This document shows positions 5,566 through 24,516 of a stretch of 24,516 nucleotides of DNA, in pieces; position 1 is the stretch's first letter, and each line of letters begins with the position of its first letter. The notes beneath the pieces are model-generated. The model saw only the letters and a program-made list of their open reading frames with translations, was not told the origin of the DNA and made no database searches. The position numbers and the translations under genes are program-made. Origin of the DNA: a virus; the IMG/VR virus record IMGVR_UViG_3300025131_000407, positions 1 to 24,516 of that record; one strand, written 5' to 3'.

Positions 5566-6216
5566 ATGAATAAAACTTACGAAAAAATAACCGAATTGCT
5601 TTTATCAGAAGTTAAGAGATCTTTCCAATCAACACAGCAAAAGAAGACAGCACGAGAGAGGAAAAGAGCAGCAACAGCGCAAAAACTAATAAAAAAAGGT
5701 GGTCATGTTGGTGGAGTCCATGTAAGTCCAGAAGCAATGAAGCATCTTACAACTAGAGGGCAAGGGTCTCAATCTACAGAAGCTCCAGGTGTAGGGGTTG
5801 TAAGACAACTAAAATTAGCAGGCAAGAAACATAGAAAAGATCAAGTTTCTGTAACTGCTCCTCATCGTAAACCTGTAGGGCATGAATTGGTTAGACCTAA
5901 ATCTGAGATTCCCTCATCTGACGTAACTAAAACCACTACTACAACAAAACCTGAAAGGGGAGAGGATATTTCTGTTCCTAAAGTTCATACTGATAAACCT
6001 TTATCTCATTATGCTACTACTAAAGGAACTTCGATTGCAGTAAAGAAGGATCCTAAATTTATGGCTCCAAGAGGACGTAAGGAAAGGAAAAGAGCTTACA
6101 AAAAAAGAACTACGGGGCATACTTTAATAACTCAGTTCCCTGGTAGGTCTGCACCTCCTGCATCTCAATGGGGAAAATCAGGTCACGTTGTTATAAAGCC
6201 TAAAGGCACTCCGTAG
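5566..6216 (+). CDS. basic putative internal head protein with capsid-targeting-like N-terminus, 216 aa
   Basis: The N-terminus MNKTYEKITELLLSEVKRS matches the shared leader of the genes at 6713 and 7266, and resembles the capsid-targeting peptide of T4 internal proteins (MKTYQEFIAE type), which the head protease cuts after L/I-x-E. The body is strongly basic and low in hydrophobics, with KKTARERKRAATAQ, RGRKERKRAYKKRT and a Thr run (residues ~125-131). It looks disordered and suited to packing with DNA. No Shine-Dalgarno sequence precedes the ATG. First gene of the rightward set. Inferred role: packaged into the head and possibly injected with DNA; the enzyme activity, if any, is unknown. 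Confidence 0.7.
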   Translation: MNKTYEKITELLLSEVKRSFQSTQQKKTARERKRAATAQKLIKKGGHVGGVHVSPEAMKHLTTRGQGSQSTEAPGVGVVRQLKLAGKKHRKDQVSVTAPHRKPVGHELVRPKSEIPSSDVTKTTTTTKPERGEDISVPKVHTDKPLSHYATTKGTSIAVKKDPKFMAPRGRKERKRAYKKRTTGHTLITQFPGRSAPPASQWGKSGHVVIKPKGTP

Positions 6217-6218
6217 AT

Positions 6219-6692
6219 ATGAAATTTAAATTTTTGACCGCCGCCTTATTGATTCTGACCTCTTGTGGAGGAAAATCCAACAGTAAGCCTAAAACTCCCC
6301 TTCCACCAGTGTCAGAAGTAGTATTAGTTGACTATAAGCCACTGAAAGGTCTTCACATGCCCCTGACGCACTTTCTAAGGCACGATAATTTAAAAAGGGT
6401 ATCTAAGGTCTATTATTTACAGGAGCTTGTAGACACCTCTTCTTGGCTCTCCTTCAAGAATTCTCGTTTAGGTAAGAACTTGATCGGAGCTATGTTCAAA
6501 AATAATGACATGAACAAAGATTTGTATCTATGGTTTGTCCTGCAAATGACACCTACCGAGCAAGTTGAATACAGCCTGGAATTGACTCAACAAGGTCTTC
6601 GTTACGTTGGGTACGAGACTTTGAAGATAGGGGATGAGGAAGAAACCAAGCTTGGTGTTACTTTTAAAAAATATGAGTCTGGGGATAGTTAA
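6219..6692 (+). CDS. lipoprotein, 157 aa
   Basis: Begins MKFKFLTAALLILTSCGGKS: a basic n-region, a short hydrophobic core and a lipobox LTSC with Cys16, so it should be lipidated and membrane anchored. A Pro/Lys-rich linker (KPKTPLPPVS) precedes a soluble domain with mixed helix/strand that has no recognised motif. It starts two bases after the stop of the 216-aa gene, between putative internal head protein genes. Phage lipoproteins often block superinfection, which fits but is not demonstrated here. Confidence 0.8.
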   Translation: MKFKFLTAALLILTSCGGKSNSKPKTPLPPVSEVVLVDYKPLKGLHMPLTHFLRHDNLKRVSKVYYLQELVDTSSWLSFKNSRLGKNLIGAMFKNNDMNKDLYLWFVLQMTPTEQVEYSLELTQQGLRYVGYETLKIGDEEETKLGVTFKKYESGDS

Positions 6693-6712
6693 TAAAACTA
6701 TATAATTGTACT

Positions 6713-7264
6713 ATGAATGAAACCTACGGAAGAATAGCGGAAGTGATGTTAGAAGCTAAAAAGCTTGAACCATTTAATCCTTATAAAAGAGAGGAACGTG
6801 GTAGCGATTGGGGGAAAGATCCATGGATTAGCATCCCTCCAACAAAATCAAATCCAACAACAGCAAAACCAAAACCAAAACCAAAAAGAGGCTCTATAGT
6901 AAAAAGGCTATTTAGAATCCTAAAATCAAAAATAAAATCAAAAAATGAGAATAGCACCTATCCTACTTACAGTAGATTGGCGGAGTTGATGTTTGAGGCC
7001 ACTTTAGTGGAAGGTAAGAAGTATCCTGGTGCTGATTCCGACTTGAGTCGATTCCCAGTTCATCCTAGAAAAATCGCCCAGGCGATTGAGCAAGGGTGGA
7101 AGAAGAAAGCTACGAAGAAGAAAGCTAAGAAGAAGAAAGCTAAGAAGAAGACAGCGAAGAGAGTCAGAAAGGGGAGGGATCCAACGGGGATCGATGATTC
7201 GGGGAGTAAGCGAACGCAAGGTGGCGAAGCTCCGACTGGGGAAGACTATAGCGTAGGGATTTGA
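6713..7264 (+). CDS. basic putative internal head protein with two targeting-like segments, 183 aa
   Basis: N-terminus MNETYGRIAEVMLEAKKLE is the shared leader. A second related segment, TYPTYSRLAELMFEATLVEG, occurs at about residues 82-101, where the DNA also resembles the start of the 7266 gene (a shared GGCGGAGTTG and TTTGAGGC). The gene therefore looks like two head-protein genes fused in frame. The C-terminal part has an H1-like tail of KKKAKKKK type, encoded by 15-nt DNA repeats around 7105-7160. TATATAATTG stands just before the ATG without a Shine-Dalgarno sequence. DNA-binding inside the capsid is inferred from the charge. Confidence 0.7.
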   Translation: MNETYGRIAEVMLEAKKLEPFNPYKREERGSDWGKDPWISIPPTKSNPTTAKPKPKPKRGSIVKRLFRILKSKIKSKNENSTYPTYSRLAELMFEATLVEGKKYPGADSDLSRFPVHPRKIAQAIEQGWKKKATKKKAKKKKAKKKTAKRVRKGRDPTGIDDSGSKRTQGGEAPTGEDYSVGI

Positions 7265-7265
7265 T

Positions 7266-7958
7266 ATGAACGAAACCTACGAAAGAATGGCGGAGTTGTT
7301 ATTTGAGGCAGAACTTCTAGCTGAAGGTAGAAGGTGGGAAGCGGTTAAGAAGTTTGGTAGAGGGGTAAAGAAAAAGGTAGGAAAAGTTGCCCGCGCAGCG
7401 GCTGTAACTGGTGCTGTTGCTCTTGGTACGGGAGGAGAGGGGACGGCTCAAGACATTAAGCCAAAATCTCGGGATCCTTGGACTCCAACTACGACTAAGA
7501 AAACGGTACAACAAGAAAAGAAACCCGCCGAGTTTCGTGGTCTTGGACGCACGTTTAAGACTCATGCTGAAAGAAGTGCTGCGGGAAAAGCTAAACTAAA
7601 AACAGATTTGGCAAAAGTTGATAAGGCTCACGATGTTAAAGACGCAGCGCAGGAGGCCGAATTCGATAAAGCTCATGCGAAGGCAAAAAAACAGCAAAGC
7701 CAAATACCCGAGCCTCTAAAGAAGACTGGCAAGGAAATTGATGTCACCACAATGGACCCTGAAAAATACCTTAAGACTAGAAAGAAGTCGAGTACGGAGG
7801 AATTGCTTGATACAACGCTCAAAAACGTTCCGGTGTCACTGCGGAAAAGTAAAGAGAAACCTACTATAAAGCTTCCAAAGAAAGCAAGCGGTCCAAAAAC
7901 GCCCCCGGCAGGCGAAGGAAAGCCCCCACGGGGTGGCGGATGGAAATTGCAGAAATAA
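7266..7958 (+). CDS. basic putative internal head protein, 230 aa
   Basis: The leader MNETYERMAELLFEAELLAE is followed by a basic helix (FGRGVKKKVGKVARAA), a short Ala/Gly/Val-rich segment (residues ~42-58) and a long Lys-rich, probably disordered body with several DPxxY-type and PKK repeats, ending GGGWKLQK. LLAEG would fit a T4-type L-x-E cleavage site. It starts one base after the stop of the previous gene. The Ala/Gly/Val stretch could be a membrane-inserting or amphipathic helix used on ejection; this is speculation. Confidence 0.7.
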   Translation: MNETYERMAELLFEAELLAEGRRWEAVKKFGRGVKKKVGKVARAAAVTGAVALGTGGEGTAQDIKPKSRDPWTPTTTKKTVQQEKKPAEFRGLGRTFKTHAERSAAGKAKLKTDLAKVDKAHDVKDAAQEAEFDKAHAKAKKQQSQIPEPLKKTGKEIDVTTMDPEKYLKTRKKSSTEELLDTTLKNVPVSLRKSKEKPTIKLPKKASGPKTPPAGEGKPPRGGGWKLQK

Positions 7959-9572: not shown

Positions 9573-10073
9573 ATGTCCGAAAGAAATACGTTAAGAAGTT
9601 TTTGCAAGTTAGCTGCTGTACCTAACGGGGCTTATGTTGATATGGATTTTAGGGATACAGCAGGAAGCATAATTAATTGCAACTGGTTTCGTGTTGATTG
9701 TAGTGCTGCTCCTGTAAAAGATGTTGCTTATTATATTGTCTCACCTTCGGCACTCAGTGGTCACGGTGGAGAGAACATTGAGCAAATGTATCAACAAGGT
9801 ACATCATCAATAAGTGTTGTTTCTGCTGCTTCTGCTGGCCCTACCAAGCGCGATCACACTTCTTCGGGGATTGGCGGTTTAATAGGTATACCAGGAAGAG
9901 ATCCTGTAGAGATGAATGTGAGGTCTAGGGATAGAGCAGCGGTTAGGGGAGTAAGGATTTGGAACCTTACAAACTCGCATCCCCATGCGTTATTCACTCT
10001 TACTTACGGCAATATTAAGCATGCTAACAGACTCAAAGACAACGATGATATTTTTTGGCCTCCAGGTGTTTAA
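9573..10073 (+). CDS. probable virion/decoration protein, paralogue 1, 166 aa
   Basis: Starts MSERNTLRSFCKLAAVPNG and is clearly related to the next gene throughout, including AYVDMDFRDTAG, CSAAPVKDVAYYIV, IGIPGRDPVEMN and the near-identical end (TYGNIKHANRLKDNDD, then WPPG). It is beta-rich with no signal peptide and few charged clusters, as in small phage capsid-decoration or tail proteins. It lacks the roughly 30-residue insert seen in its neighbour between GGxxxE and SGIGG. Function inferred from neighbourhood and beta character only. Confidence 0.7.
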   Translation: MSERNTLRSFCKLAAVPNGAYVDMDFRDTAGSIINCNWFRVDCSAAPVKDVAYYIVSPSALSGHGGENIEQMYQQGTSSISVVSAASAGPTKRDHTSSGIGGLIGIPGRDPVEMNVRSRDRAAVRGVRIWNLTNSHPHALFTLTYGNIKHANRLKDNDDIFWPPGV

Positions 10074-10075
10074 TT

Positions 10076-10675
10076 ATGGTTGAAAGAAATACGTTAAGAT
10101 CTTATTGTAAACTTGCTACTGTATCTAACGGGGCTTATGTTGATATAGAGTTTACAGACACAGCAGGTAACAAGCTTAGATGTAATTGGTTTAGTGTCGA
10201 TTGCAGTGCTGCTCCTGTAGCAGATGTTGCTTATTATATTGTTACTCCTTCTGGCAGTGGTGACAGGAATCTTTCGGCAGATAAACCAGGGGACTCACTT
10301 TATACTGGGTTTGCTTCGGCAATAGACGTTATTGCTAATGCCTCTTCTGGCCCTACTTACACTGATGATGGGATGGGGAATATTACTGTTTCTTATTTAC
10401 TTCAGAATACTGCCTCTGGTATTGGCGGGGTAATAGGCATACCAGGAAGAGATCCTGTAGAAATGAATTGGTATAGGAAGGCGGCGACCGATTCTGTGGT
10501 GGCGGAGGTTGAGGGCGATGTAGCGGCAAAGCGATCAGGGGTGCCTATAGGAGTGAGAATTTGGAACCTTACAAAATCTCATCCTCACGCTTTATTCACT
10601 GTTACATACGGCAATATTAAGCATGCTAACAGACTCAAAGACAATGATGACACTTATTGGCCCCCTGGAGATTAG
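10076..10675 (+). CDS. probable virion/decoration protein, paralogue 2, 199 aa
   Basis: ATG at 10076, two bases after the stop of paralogue 1; this start aligns its MVERNTLRSYCKLATV with the neighbour's N-terminus, whereas an open extension to 10055 does not. Compared with paralogue 1 it has extra segments around TYTDDGMGNITVSYLLQ and after DPVEMN (a polar, Ala/Val-rich loop). The C-terminus is nearly the same (TYGNIKHANRLKDNDD). The DNA also remains similar at both ends, indicating a fairly recent tandem duplication or strong selection. Confidence 0.7.
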   Translation: MVERNTLRSYCKLATVSNGAYVDIEFTDTAGNKLRCNWFSVDCSAAPVADVAYYIVTPSGSGDRNLSADKPGDSLYTGFASAIDVIANASSGPTYTDDGMGNITVSYLLQNTASGIGGVIGIPGRDPVEMNWYRKAATDSVVAEVEGDVAAKRSGVPIGVRIWNLTKSHPHALFTVTYGNIKHANRLKDNDDTYWPPGD

Positions 10676-19523: not shown

Positions 19524-20276
19524 ATGACTAATGATCTACCAAAGGTATCAGAAGATAAATTAGAAGCTATTGACAAGATATTAGAGTATTTGCCTCCCGA
19601 AGTAGAGATTCCAGTAAGTTTGCCTTCTAGAGGTAAGTTTTATAATTTATTAGAGCCTTCTGAGCCCATAACGGTTAGACCCATGACTTTTGATGATGAA
19701 AAAGCAATCGCTAATACCAAGAGGGGGAAGGTAGATCCTATAAATCTCCTTCTTAGCCGATGTGTAAATAATTTATCTATTGGGGAAATAATACTCATGG
19801 ATAAAATATACCTTCTTTATAAGATAAGAGAAGCATCTTACGGATCTGATTATAGAGCACTAGTGACCTGTCCTAAATGTGACGCTGAATCTGAAGTGAC
19901 AGTAGATTTGTCCAAATTAAATGTGAATGAAGTTCCAGAGGATATGGAGAATCCTAGGGAGATAAAGCTTAAGAAAATAAAAAAGAAGGCTAAAGTTCGA
20001 TTTCCTAGATTATCTGAAGAAAAATATTTTTCATTAACGGAAGATACAAATACTCAATTTTGGAGATTTGTAGAAGAAGTTGATGGCTGCACGGATAAGC
20101 AGGTAATATCAGAGGTGATAAAAAAATTACCTTTGGCGGATATTCATACAATTATTGAAGAAATAACCCAAATAAACTATGGGGTGGATCCTAAAATTAA
20201 TTTTATATGCTCTGAGTGCGAAGGGGAATCGGTTGTCGATGTCCAGGTAGGTGAGAATTTTTTTACCGAGAGCTAG
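19524..20276 (+). CDS. T4 gp26-like baseplate hub protein with Zn-ribbon Cys pairs, 250 aa
   Basis: Start at MTNDLPKVSE with AAGGA upstream; the open extension before it overlaps the helicase promoter. The first half resembles the T4 baseplate family: PVSLPSRGKFY, ITVRPMTFDDEKAIANTK and DPINLLLSRC, matching T4 baseplate-hub proteins of gp26 type. Two Cys pairs, CPKC (116-119) and CSEC (229-232), 110 residues apart, form a probable Zn ribbon. It ends GENFFTES: the FF codons form a T_TTT_TTT slippery site (20258-20264), discussed separately. It stands 1 gene plus the shifted frame upstream of another virion gene. Confidence 0.8.
   Translation: MTNDLPKVSEDKLEAIDKILEYLPPEVEIPVSLPSRGKFYNLLEPSEPITVRPMTFDDEKAIANTKRGKVDPINLLLSRCVNNLSIGEIILMDKIYLLYKIREASYGSDYRALVTCPKCDAESEVTVDLSKLNVNEVPEDMENPREIKLKKIKKKAKVRFPRLSEEKYFSLTEDTNTQFWRFVEEVDGCTDKQVISEVIKKLPLADIHTIIEEITQINYGVDPKINFICSECEGESVVDVQVGENFFTES
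20258..20264 (+). promoter_or_regulatory. candidate -1 ribosomal frameshift site
   Basis: The reading frame is GAG-AAT-TTT-TTT-ACC, so seven T form a T_TTT_TTT heptamer in the right register for a -1 shift. An SD-like AGGTGA (20249-20254) is close upstream. No strong downstream stem is visible. Confidence 0.6.
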
Positions 20277-20458
20277 AAGAATTTTTAAAGTTAGATGATC
20301 TATTTCATGAGGCCTATATACTTGTAAAAGAAGTTGGGCTCTCATATTCTGATGTAAGGTCTATGACTAGAATTGAGAGGACTAGCTTTTTAACAATATA
20401 TAAAGAGGATTTGGAGAGACAAAGGGATGCAGTTAAACGGGAAACAGGTCATAGATAG
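20264..20458 (+). CDS. -1 frame extension of the gp26-like gene (gp51-like?), 64 codons without a start codon
   Basis: The frame reads YRELEEFLKLDDLFHEAYIL and continues to KRETGHR, then TAG. It opens after TGA at 20252-20254 and contains no ATG, GTG or TTG before SMTRIERT (codon 34), so normal initiation is unlikely. Expression by -1 shift would give a 311-residue gp26-extension fusion. In T4, gene 51 (baseplate hub chaperone) follows gene 26; the helical, charged pattern with a central VGLSYSDVRSM is reminiscent of gp51-like segments in other T4-like phages. It overlaps the next gene's start by 32 bases. Confidence 0.6.
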   Translation, partial: YRELEEFLKLDDLFHEAYILVKEVGLSYSDVRSMTRIERTSFLTIYKEDLERQRDAVKRETGHR

Positions 20459-23441: not shown

Positions 23442-23870
23442 ATGAGTGCAATTAGAAAAATATTAAACTTTTTTTCTTTTGATGGAGCCCTTAAAAAGGC
23501 GGGGAAGATCCCCAGATCAGCAGGATACTTACAGCCAGGGGATGTAGTAACATTTCAGTATAAGAATTATAACAATTTATCGGTAGATCAAGTTGTTGTT
23601 CTCGTCGTAGCCACAAAAACGGGTCGAGGTGTGAGGGTAGCCAAGACGGGGAACAAGCTAATTACTTGTTTTAAGCTTCCAGGAGATGGGCTAGTTACTA
23701 GGGAAATCCTCAAACGACTATATAAGGATAGGTCAGAAGCTACTTTTTTATCTGCCTCACGGACATTTGGTGGACTTAAAGCTCTTCTAGGGCCTGATAA
23801 CTTTAGGACATATATTTTGAATCAAGTATACGATATGCATGAGCTTCTGATAGATAAGGGAGAATTGTAA
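23442..23870 (+). CDS. hypothetical phage protein, probable virion or tail-assembly gene, 142 aa
   Basis: Start without a Shine-Dalgarno sequence. N-terminus is basic and helical (MSAIRKILNFFSFDGALKK), then a beta-rich core with LQPGDVVTFQYKNYNN and QVVVLVVATKTGRG, resembling a small SH3- or OB-type barrel, and a helical end (FRTYILNQVYDMHELLID). TAATG overlap with the tape-measure-like gene indicates coupling, so it probably belongs to tail assembly. No family recognised. Confidence 0.65.
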   Translation: MSAIRKILNFFSFDGALKKAGKIPRSAGYLQPGDVVTFQYKNYNNLSVDQVVVLVVATKTGRGVRVAKTGNKLITCFKLPGDGLVTREILKRLYKDRSEATFLSASRTFGGLKALLGPDNFRTYILNQVYDMHELLIDKGEL

Positions 23871-24516
23871 TGGCTGGTGGAGGAGTACCGCCAACCCAGC
23901 CCCAGGCCCAACCCCAACTTTCGAGAGCAATGGATGCTCTTGGTCTGAAAATGAGCCTGGGTTATCGGGTAGCAGATAAATTAATTGCCGCTTTTACGTC
24001 TCTAGAAGCTACTCAAACTCAAGCTTTGGGCCTTGGCACTACCGCAAATGTAGCCTTCGCTAACTTAACCAAATCTATAGATCATGTCCCAGGAGGTATG
24101 GGGTTAGCCCTGGAACATGCTATGTCGTTCACGCGAGCAGGCATGAAGACTGTTAACAAGAGTATGCTCGATATGGCAGCGCAAGCAAAGTTAACGGGGC
24201 AAGATACGCAAAAACTAATTAAAGGGTTAACGTCCGTATACTCTATCCTTGCATTGTCTGATAAAGAAATGACCAGCTTAGGTGAGACCTTGCAACAAAC
24301 CTCGAATGATTATCAGGTGACTACAACCGATCTTGTAGGGGCTCTTGAAGCAAACTCTAAGATATTAAAAGACGTTGCGGCAGTTTCTCCAGAAGCATCA
24401 AAACAAGTTCGAGATGTGATAATAGAGATGACAGGCAAATTAGGAGTGGGCCAACAGGATAATATTCGAGCGGTGATGAGCGTGTTAACCGCTCCAGGAG
24501 GTATAAAAGACTTGGG
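23870..24516 (+). CDS. tape-measure-like large structural protein, N-terminal part (runs off window)
   Basis: The first 215 codons are visible. ATG overlaps the stop of the 142-aa gene (TAATG). Starts MAGGGVPPTQPQAQPQLSRA, then a long mostly helical, Ala/Leu/Thr-rich region with repeated patterns such as LTKSIDHVPGGMGLALEHAM and LGETLQQTSNDYQVTTTDLV, and low charge density. That composition (long amphipathic helices with Gly breaks) and the position after baseplate-type genes match a tail tape measure or similar long tail/head protein. The C-terminal part, including any peptidase domain, lies outside the window. Confidence 0.5.
   Translation, partial: MAGGGVPPTQPQAQPQLSRAMDALGLKMSLGYRVADKLIAAFTSLEATQTQALGLGTTANVAFANLTKSIDHVPGGMGLALEHAMSFTRAGMKTVNKSMLDMAAQAKLTGQDTQKLIKGLTSVYSILALSDKEMTSLGETLQQTSNDYQVTTTDLVGALEANSKILKDVAAVSPEASKQVRDVIIEMTGKLGVGQQDNIRAVMSVLTAPGGIKDL

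Follow-up and report, generated by a model that had tools for sequence, protein, structure and literature searches.

The DNA analyzed here is a 24,516-base IMG/VR virus record (IMGVR_UViG_3300025131_000407), hereafter "the window", from a distant T4-like phage with genes for a terminase, a portal, a DNA helicase, a primase, and an exonuclease. The locus of interest falls within a block of genes ordered as helicase (- strand), chaperone (+), conserved 313-aa protein (+), primase (-), exonuclease (+), small gene (-), 142-aa protein (+), and candidate tape measure (+), and the same helicase-to-candidate-tape-measure block is also present in relatives. The candidate tape measure (23870–24516, + strand, cut by the window end) lies 3.6 kb downstream of the chaperone gene and is proposed from position and size only: its counterparts in relatives are 537–594 aa long and have Phage_base_V and gp25 genes downstream, while comparison with protein families, including tape measure families, yielded no match (weak scores to TMP_3, E 0.12, and phrog_167, E 0.35). 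Elsewhere in the window, two adjacent ORFs at 9573–10675 (166 and 206 aa) have very similar starts and ends and look like tandem paralogues, possibly duplicated virion proteins. Separately, three ORFs in the region 5566–7958 (at 5566, 6713, and 7266) resemble one another at the N-terminus (MNxTYxxI/MxELLxEA), have lysine-rich, low-complexity bodies, and apparently form a diverged gene family.

The upstream gene at the locus (19524–20276, + strand) encodes a 250-aa gp26-like protein, denoted TAC-N or "G", which matches Pfam PF12322 (T4_baseplate) with E 4e-18 and 66.3 bits against a cut-off of 24.5, covering profile positions 9–218 of 219, and also matches phrog_150 ("baseplate hub", E 2.3e-22). 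It contains two CxxC pairs, the cysteines of which (C116, C119, C229, and C232) are invariant in relatives, and its AlphaFold2 model has a mean pLDDT of 90.7. The frame opens with an ATG at 19524 and its last codons read AAT TTT TTT ACC GAG AGC TAG, which places a T_TTT_TTT heptamer with exactly seven T (20258–20264, + strand) in register with the X_XXY_YYZ rule, shortly before the 0-frame TAG that ends the unshifted product (20274–20276, + strand). The -1 frame is open from 20255, directly after a TGA at 20252–20254, to a TAG at 20456–20458. Within it, the extension that follows the heptamer (20264–20458, + strand; TAC-C or "T" domain) comprises 64 codons plus the stop, resembles the C-terminus of T4 gp51, and has a predicted fold of helix, short helix, and helix (mean pLDDT of 86.4). 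An earlier note on this DNA had claimed a correctly registered heptamer near the gp26-like stop and a -1 frame open for 64 codons, the first 33 of them free of ATG, GTG, or TTG; direct reading of the window bears out each of these points, and the length computed for the predicted fusion, 311 aa, agrees with the product that the note had described.

Next, we evaluated whether homologues carry the same arrangement, as the earlier note had proposed. A first scan of viral contigs recovered 19 relatives at 38–50% identity, all of which had the heptamer and the extension, and two further scans brought the set to 97 sequences including the window; the gp26 open frame could be analyzed in 95 of these IMG/VR loci, which form 52 clusters at 80% identity. 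A T_TTT_TTY heptamer stood in register before the gp26 stop in 95/95 loci (52 clusters), and in 81 of the 95 the stop came 16 nt after the first base of the heptamer. In each case, at least 45 residues of -1 extension followed, and the extensions of relatives were 56–70 residues long. At one locus (L013:4791), the extension stops early (56 aa) and conserved sequence resumes in a different frame, as if through an indel or a sequencing error. The codon ahead of the Phe-Phe pair always ended in T and the first Phe was always encoded by TTT, for which log10 P is about -16.5 under background codon usage, if the 52 clusters are taken as independent, which they are not fully. Differences within the extension, counted by -1-frame codon position, were 0.42/0.29/0.58, i.e., least at the second position and most at the third, and invariant alignment columns included AYIL and Y.DV. 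Such a pattern is that of a protein under selection; the earlier note had read the -1 frame as protein rather than noise. Finally, exactly one PF12322 gene was found in each of eight long related records (none rated complete), compared to two in T4. Overall, the sequence comparisons point to a real and deeply conserved -1 frameshift arrangement in this T4-like clade.

Folding z-scores and covariation were used to assess a hairpin region downstream of the heptamer (20272–20309, + strand). In most relatives, the hairpin begins 8 nt past the heptamer and opens at the 0-frame stop codon (e.g., arms CTAAGTACAGG/CCTGTACTTAG in L007), and the mean z-score across 46 clusters was lowest exactly at this place (-1.38 at +15). 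Covariation between the arms reached 0.231 compared to 0.173 for shuffled data, with 0 of 500 shuffles attaining the observed value and every slid register scoring lower, these figures referring to a hairpin that was spotted by eye in single sequences and to a register chosen from the same data that were later counted. An RNAalifold consensus structure for a 37-sequence alignment contained no consensus pairs, and the hairpin of the window itself is weak (-4.7 kcal/mol; 81-nt z-score of -1.56).

Explanations other than ribosomal frameshifting can be weighed against these patterns. The alternative offered by the earlier note was a sequencing or assembly error in the T run that split one ordinary reading frame, as might befall an error-prone homopolymer. 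This is excluded by the relatives, because the stop, the heptamer, and the -1 extension recur in 95/95 independently assembled loci from 52 clusters, with the 16-nt distance kept in most, and we give it practically no credence; moreover, the T run consists of only six T followed by C in half of the clusters (26/52), with an identical frame arrangement. The six-T clusters also bear on transcriptional slippage, whereby the fusion would arise from RNA polymerase adding or losing a T. Homopolymer slippage is a known process and the window does have seven T, but six T plus C is a short run for polymerase slippage, and the clusters concerned nonetheless retain the exact tandem X_XXY_YYZ register that a ribosome needs. 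The hairpin 8 nt downstream in most relatives likewise fits ribosomal -1 shifting, and polymerase slippage appears unlikely.

Alternatively, the downstream frame could be a separate small gene with its own start, equivalent to the short "gp51" of cyanophage annotation, as suggested by a 35-aa "baseplate hub assembly catalyst" annotated in the cyanophage-like C48C1 and by a conserved ATG at extension codon 35. However, conservation begins at the heptamer, well upstream of this ATG, and homologues do not generally provide the downstream frame with a normal start, the presence of which, together with a lack of the conserved heptamer, the earlier note would have counted against frameshifting: ATG, GTG, and TTG are all absent from the first 20 extension codons in 45/52 clusters, and a Shine-Dalgarno-like match precedes any start in the first 40 codons in few clusters only. 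In addition, the same segment occurs in T4 gp51 fused to a gp26-like domain. Based on the start codons and on the point where conservation begins, we rejected a separate gene as very improbable.

The two parts of the predicted fusion can be related to T4 proteins through shared family profiles. T4 gp26 and T4 gp51 both match PF12322 (E 9e-64 and E 4e-52, respectively) and are therefore paralogues. They differ in extent: along phrog_150 (282 positions), gp26 spans positions 14–235 and gp51 positions 13–280, and along a model built from the frameshifted fusions (309 positions), gp26 is matched at 45–246 only while gp51 is matched through to 294. For the extension, phrog_634 ("baseplate hub assembly catalyst", the gp51 C-terminal family) was matched by 12/17 relatives, whereas the extension of the window alone had no match in the Pfam or PHROG comparison, phrog_634 included. 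A larger T alignment recovered the T4 gp51 C-terminus with HMMER at E 5e-4, third best of 1281 open frames, and a direct hhalign comparison of the T alignment with T4 gp51 was weak (E 0.053). These similarities indicate homology between the extension and the C-terminal part of T4 gp51. They uphold the earlier description of the downstream segment as gp51-like with regard to this C-terminus, but not as an equivalent of the whole of gp51, which also includes a gp26-like domain.

Since T4 gp51 consists of a whole gp26-like domain plus the extension segment, these alignments designate T4 gp26 as the counterpart of the unshifted product and T4 gp51 as the counterpart of the shifted fusion. Hence, the short and long forms that are two genes in T4 would both be encoded by one gene here. 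The T4 genes and the window gene have in common their PF12322/phrog_150 membership, the T segment (at the C-terminus of gp51), and a helicase gene nearby (uvsW in T4), but in T4 the two genes lie on opposite strands without any frameshift, where the window has a single gene with a predicted frameshift. A frameshift is reportedly conserved in several T4-like groups, T4 itself being said to have separate genes 26 and 51.

Other phages display variants of this arrangement. In C48C1 (L026:5962–6848), the annotated 35-aa gp51 corresponds to the final stretch of a -1 frame that continues gp26 from GAT TTT TTT TAA. The extension of the window clade matches this C48C1 extension (E 3.5e-6), although the two are distant in sequence and the C48C1 slip site lies 7 nt from the stop. 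Cyanophage gp51 was described as ~20% of its usual length and devoid of the first ~200 residues (Sullivan et al. 2010, PMC3037559), and, judging from C48C1, such short genes resemble the last part of a protein made by frameshifting. In Bacillus phage SP-15, Listeria phage LIS04, Streptococcus phage GXN1, and contig L118 (loci L020, L021, L022, and L118), the extension is instead in the +1 frame, with a conserved NCC-(C/A)GA-TTY directly before the gp26-like stop. In Lak megaphages (L027, L028, and L119–L121), a gp51-like extension likewise lies at +1 relative to the gp26-like gene, and in some members it is open only when TAG is read as an amino acid. Among these +1 extensions, the T model recognized those of Lak phages (E 7e-9), weakly that of L118 (E 0.006), and not clearly the SP-15 type. 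The distribution of frames suggests that a single gene family has switched between shift directions; a -2 shift, which would reach the same frame as +1, is an alternative reading.

Frameshifting in the tail-assembly chaperone (TAC) genes of T4-like viruses is already published, and the window locus extends a known system. Vladimirov, Gautam & Davidson (Virology 2022, 566:9-15) identified TAC genes of T4-like phages, and as relayed by papers citing that study, poly-T sequences act as -1 slippery signals in T4-like TAC-N genes (phage Adele, PMC12846349), and some T4-like phages have two genes, one short and one a longer fusion (PRFect, PMC10885494). The window gene is of the same family as these TACs. 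The suggestion of the earlier note that the locus would show G/GT-type frameshifting in a T4-like baseplate module needs correction: the strategy is not a new one there, the gp26/gp51 family being that of T4-like tail-assembly chaperones, with poly-T shifting previously described. For lambda, a review (PMC5009743) describes gpG and gpGT, the short and long products, as both binding the tape measure, the T part as contacting the tail tube subunit, and the frameshift as widely conserved, T4 excepted. The window gene resembles lambda G/GT (PMC5009743) in being one gene with a predicted -1 shift near its 3' end, predicted short and C-terminally extended forms, and a probable link to tail assembly. 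Compared by protein family and gene arrangement, it differs in that the G part is a CxxC protein of PF12322, and that several conserved genes, some of them on the opposite strand and of replication type, separate the chaperone from the candidate tape measure.

Since the candidate tape measure has no family match, we infer the chaperone role of the gp26-like product from homology and from the literature. In the LIS04 annotation, tail tube and tape measure enclose the PF12322 gene; in SP-15, it sits between the tail tube and what is annotated as a large putative tail protein. Structure models of G and T had no match in the PDB at E ≤ 0.001, and YqbN (3klu), a TAC-related protein, appeared at E 6.6 only.

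Given the conservation of heptamer and extension and the homology to gp51, the central claim of the earlier note, i.e., a programmed -1 frameshift with a gp26-like segment upstream and a gp51-like segment downstream, is well supported, and we consider it very likely that both forms of a T4-like tail-assembly chaperone come from a single gene via a -1 slip on T_TTT_TTT. Slippage itself and its rate we infer from sequence. Specifically, most ribosomes would stop at 20276 and release the 250-aa gp26-like protein (TAC-N, like lambda gpG), while a minority would slip back one base at 20258–20264 and produce the 311-aa protein, a predicted TAC-NC with an added helical C-terminal domain, like lambda gpGT and T4 gp51. 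It is probable that the short form coats the tape measure protein and that tail-tube subunits are recruited by the added domain.

A further nucleotide element within the extension (GAGGCCTATATA in the window, consensus GAAGCCTATATA; 20309–20320, + strand, +51 to +62 from the heptamer) stood out through synonymous conservation. Its GCC codon was retained in 42/45 clusters (P 3e-30) and its ATA codon in 44/44 (P 1e-28), a stronger synonymous conservation than at any of 58 conserved codons of the upstream gene, slip site included, and its offset was constant (+54 in 42/46 clusters). An overlap with another gene was rejected, with no other frame consistently open, as was a general promoter, with 5 other occurrences of the element compared to ~7 expected in 393 kb of related loci. 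Because its conservation exceeds that of the slip site, a covarying hairpin precedes it, no other frame is conserved, and it is not repeated, we tentatively propose, as one possibility and not the favored expectation, that the element could be a new cis-acting RNA signal setting the frameshift rate or otherwise controlling the TAC-N:TAC-NC ratio in this clade. We found no published description of the hairpin, the element, or the apparent +1 shifts, the study of Vladimirov et al. being represented in this survey by the papers citing it, and the hairpin and the element may be new.

Taken together, these observations add a large uncultivated far-T4 clade to the phages with tail chaperones made by frameshifting, and one gene of this clade would correspond to two paralogous genes of T4. 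The conserved element, in turn, poses a specific and testable question, i.e., how the balance between the short and long forms is set in phages.
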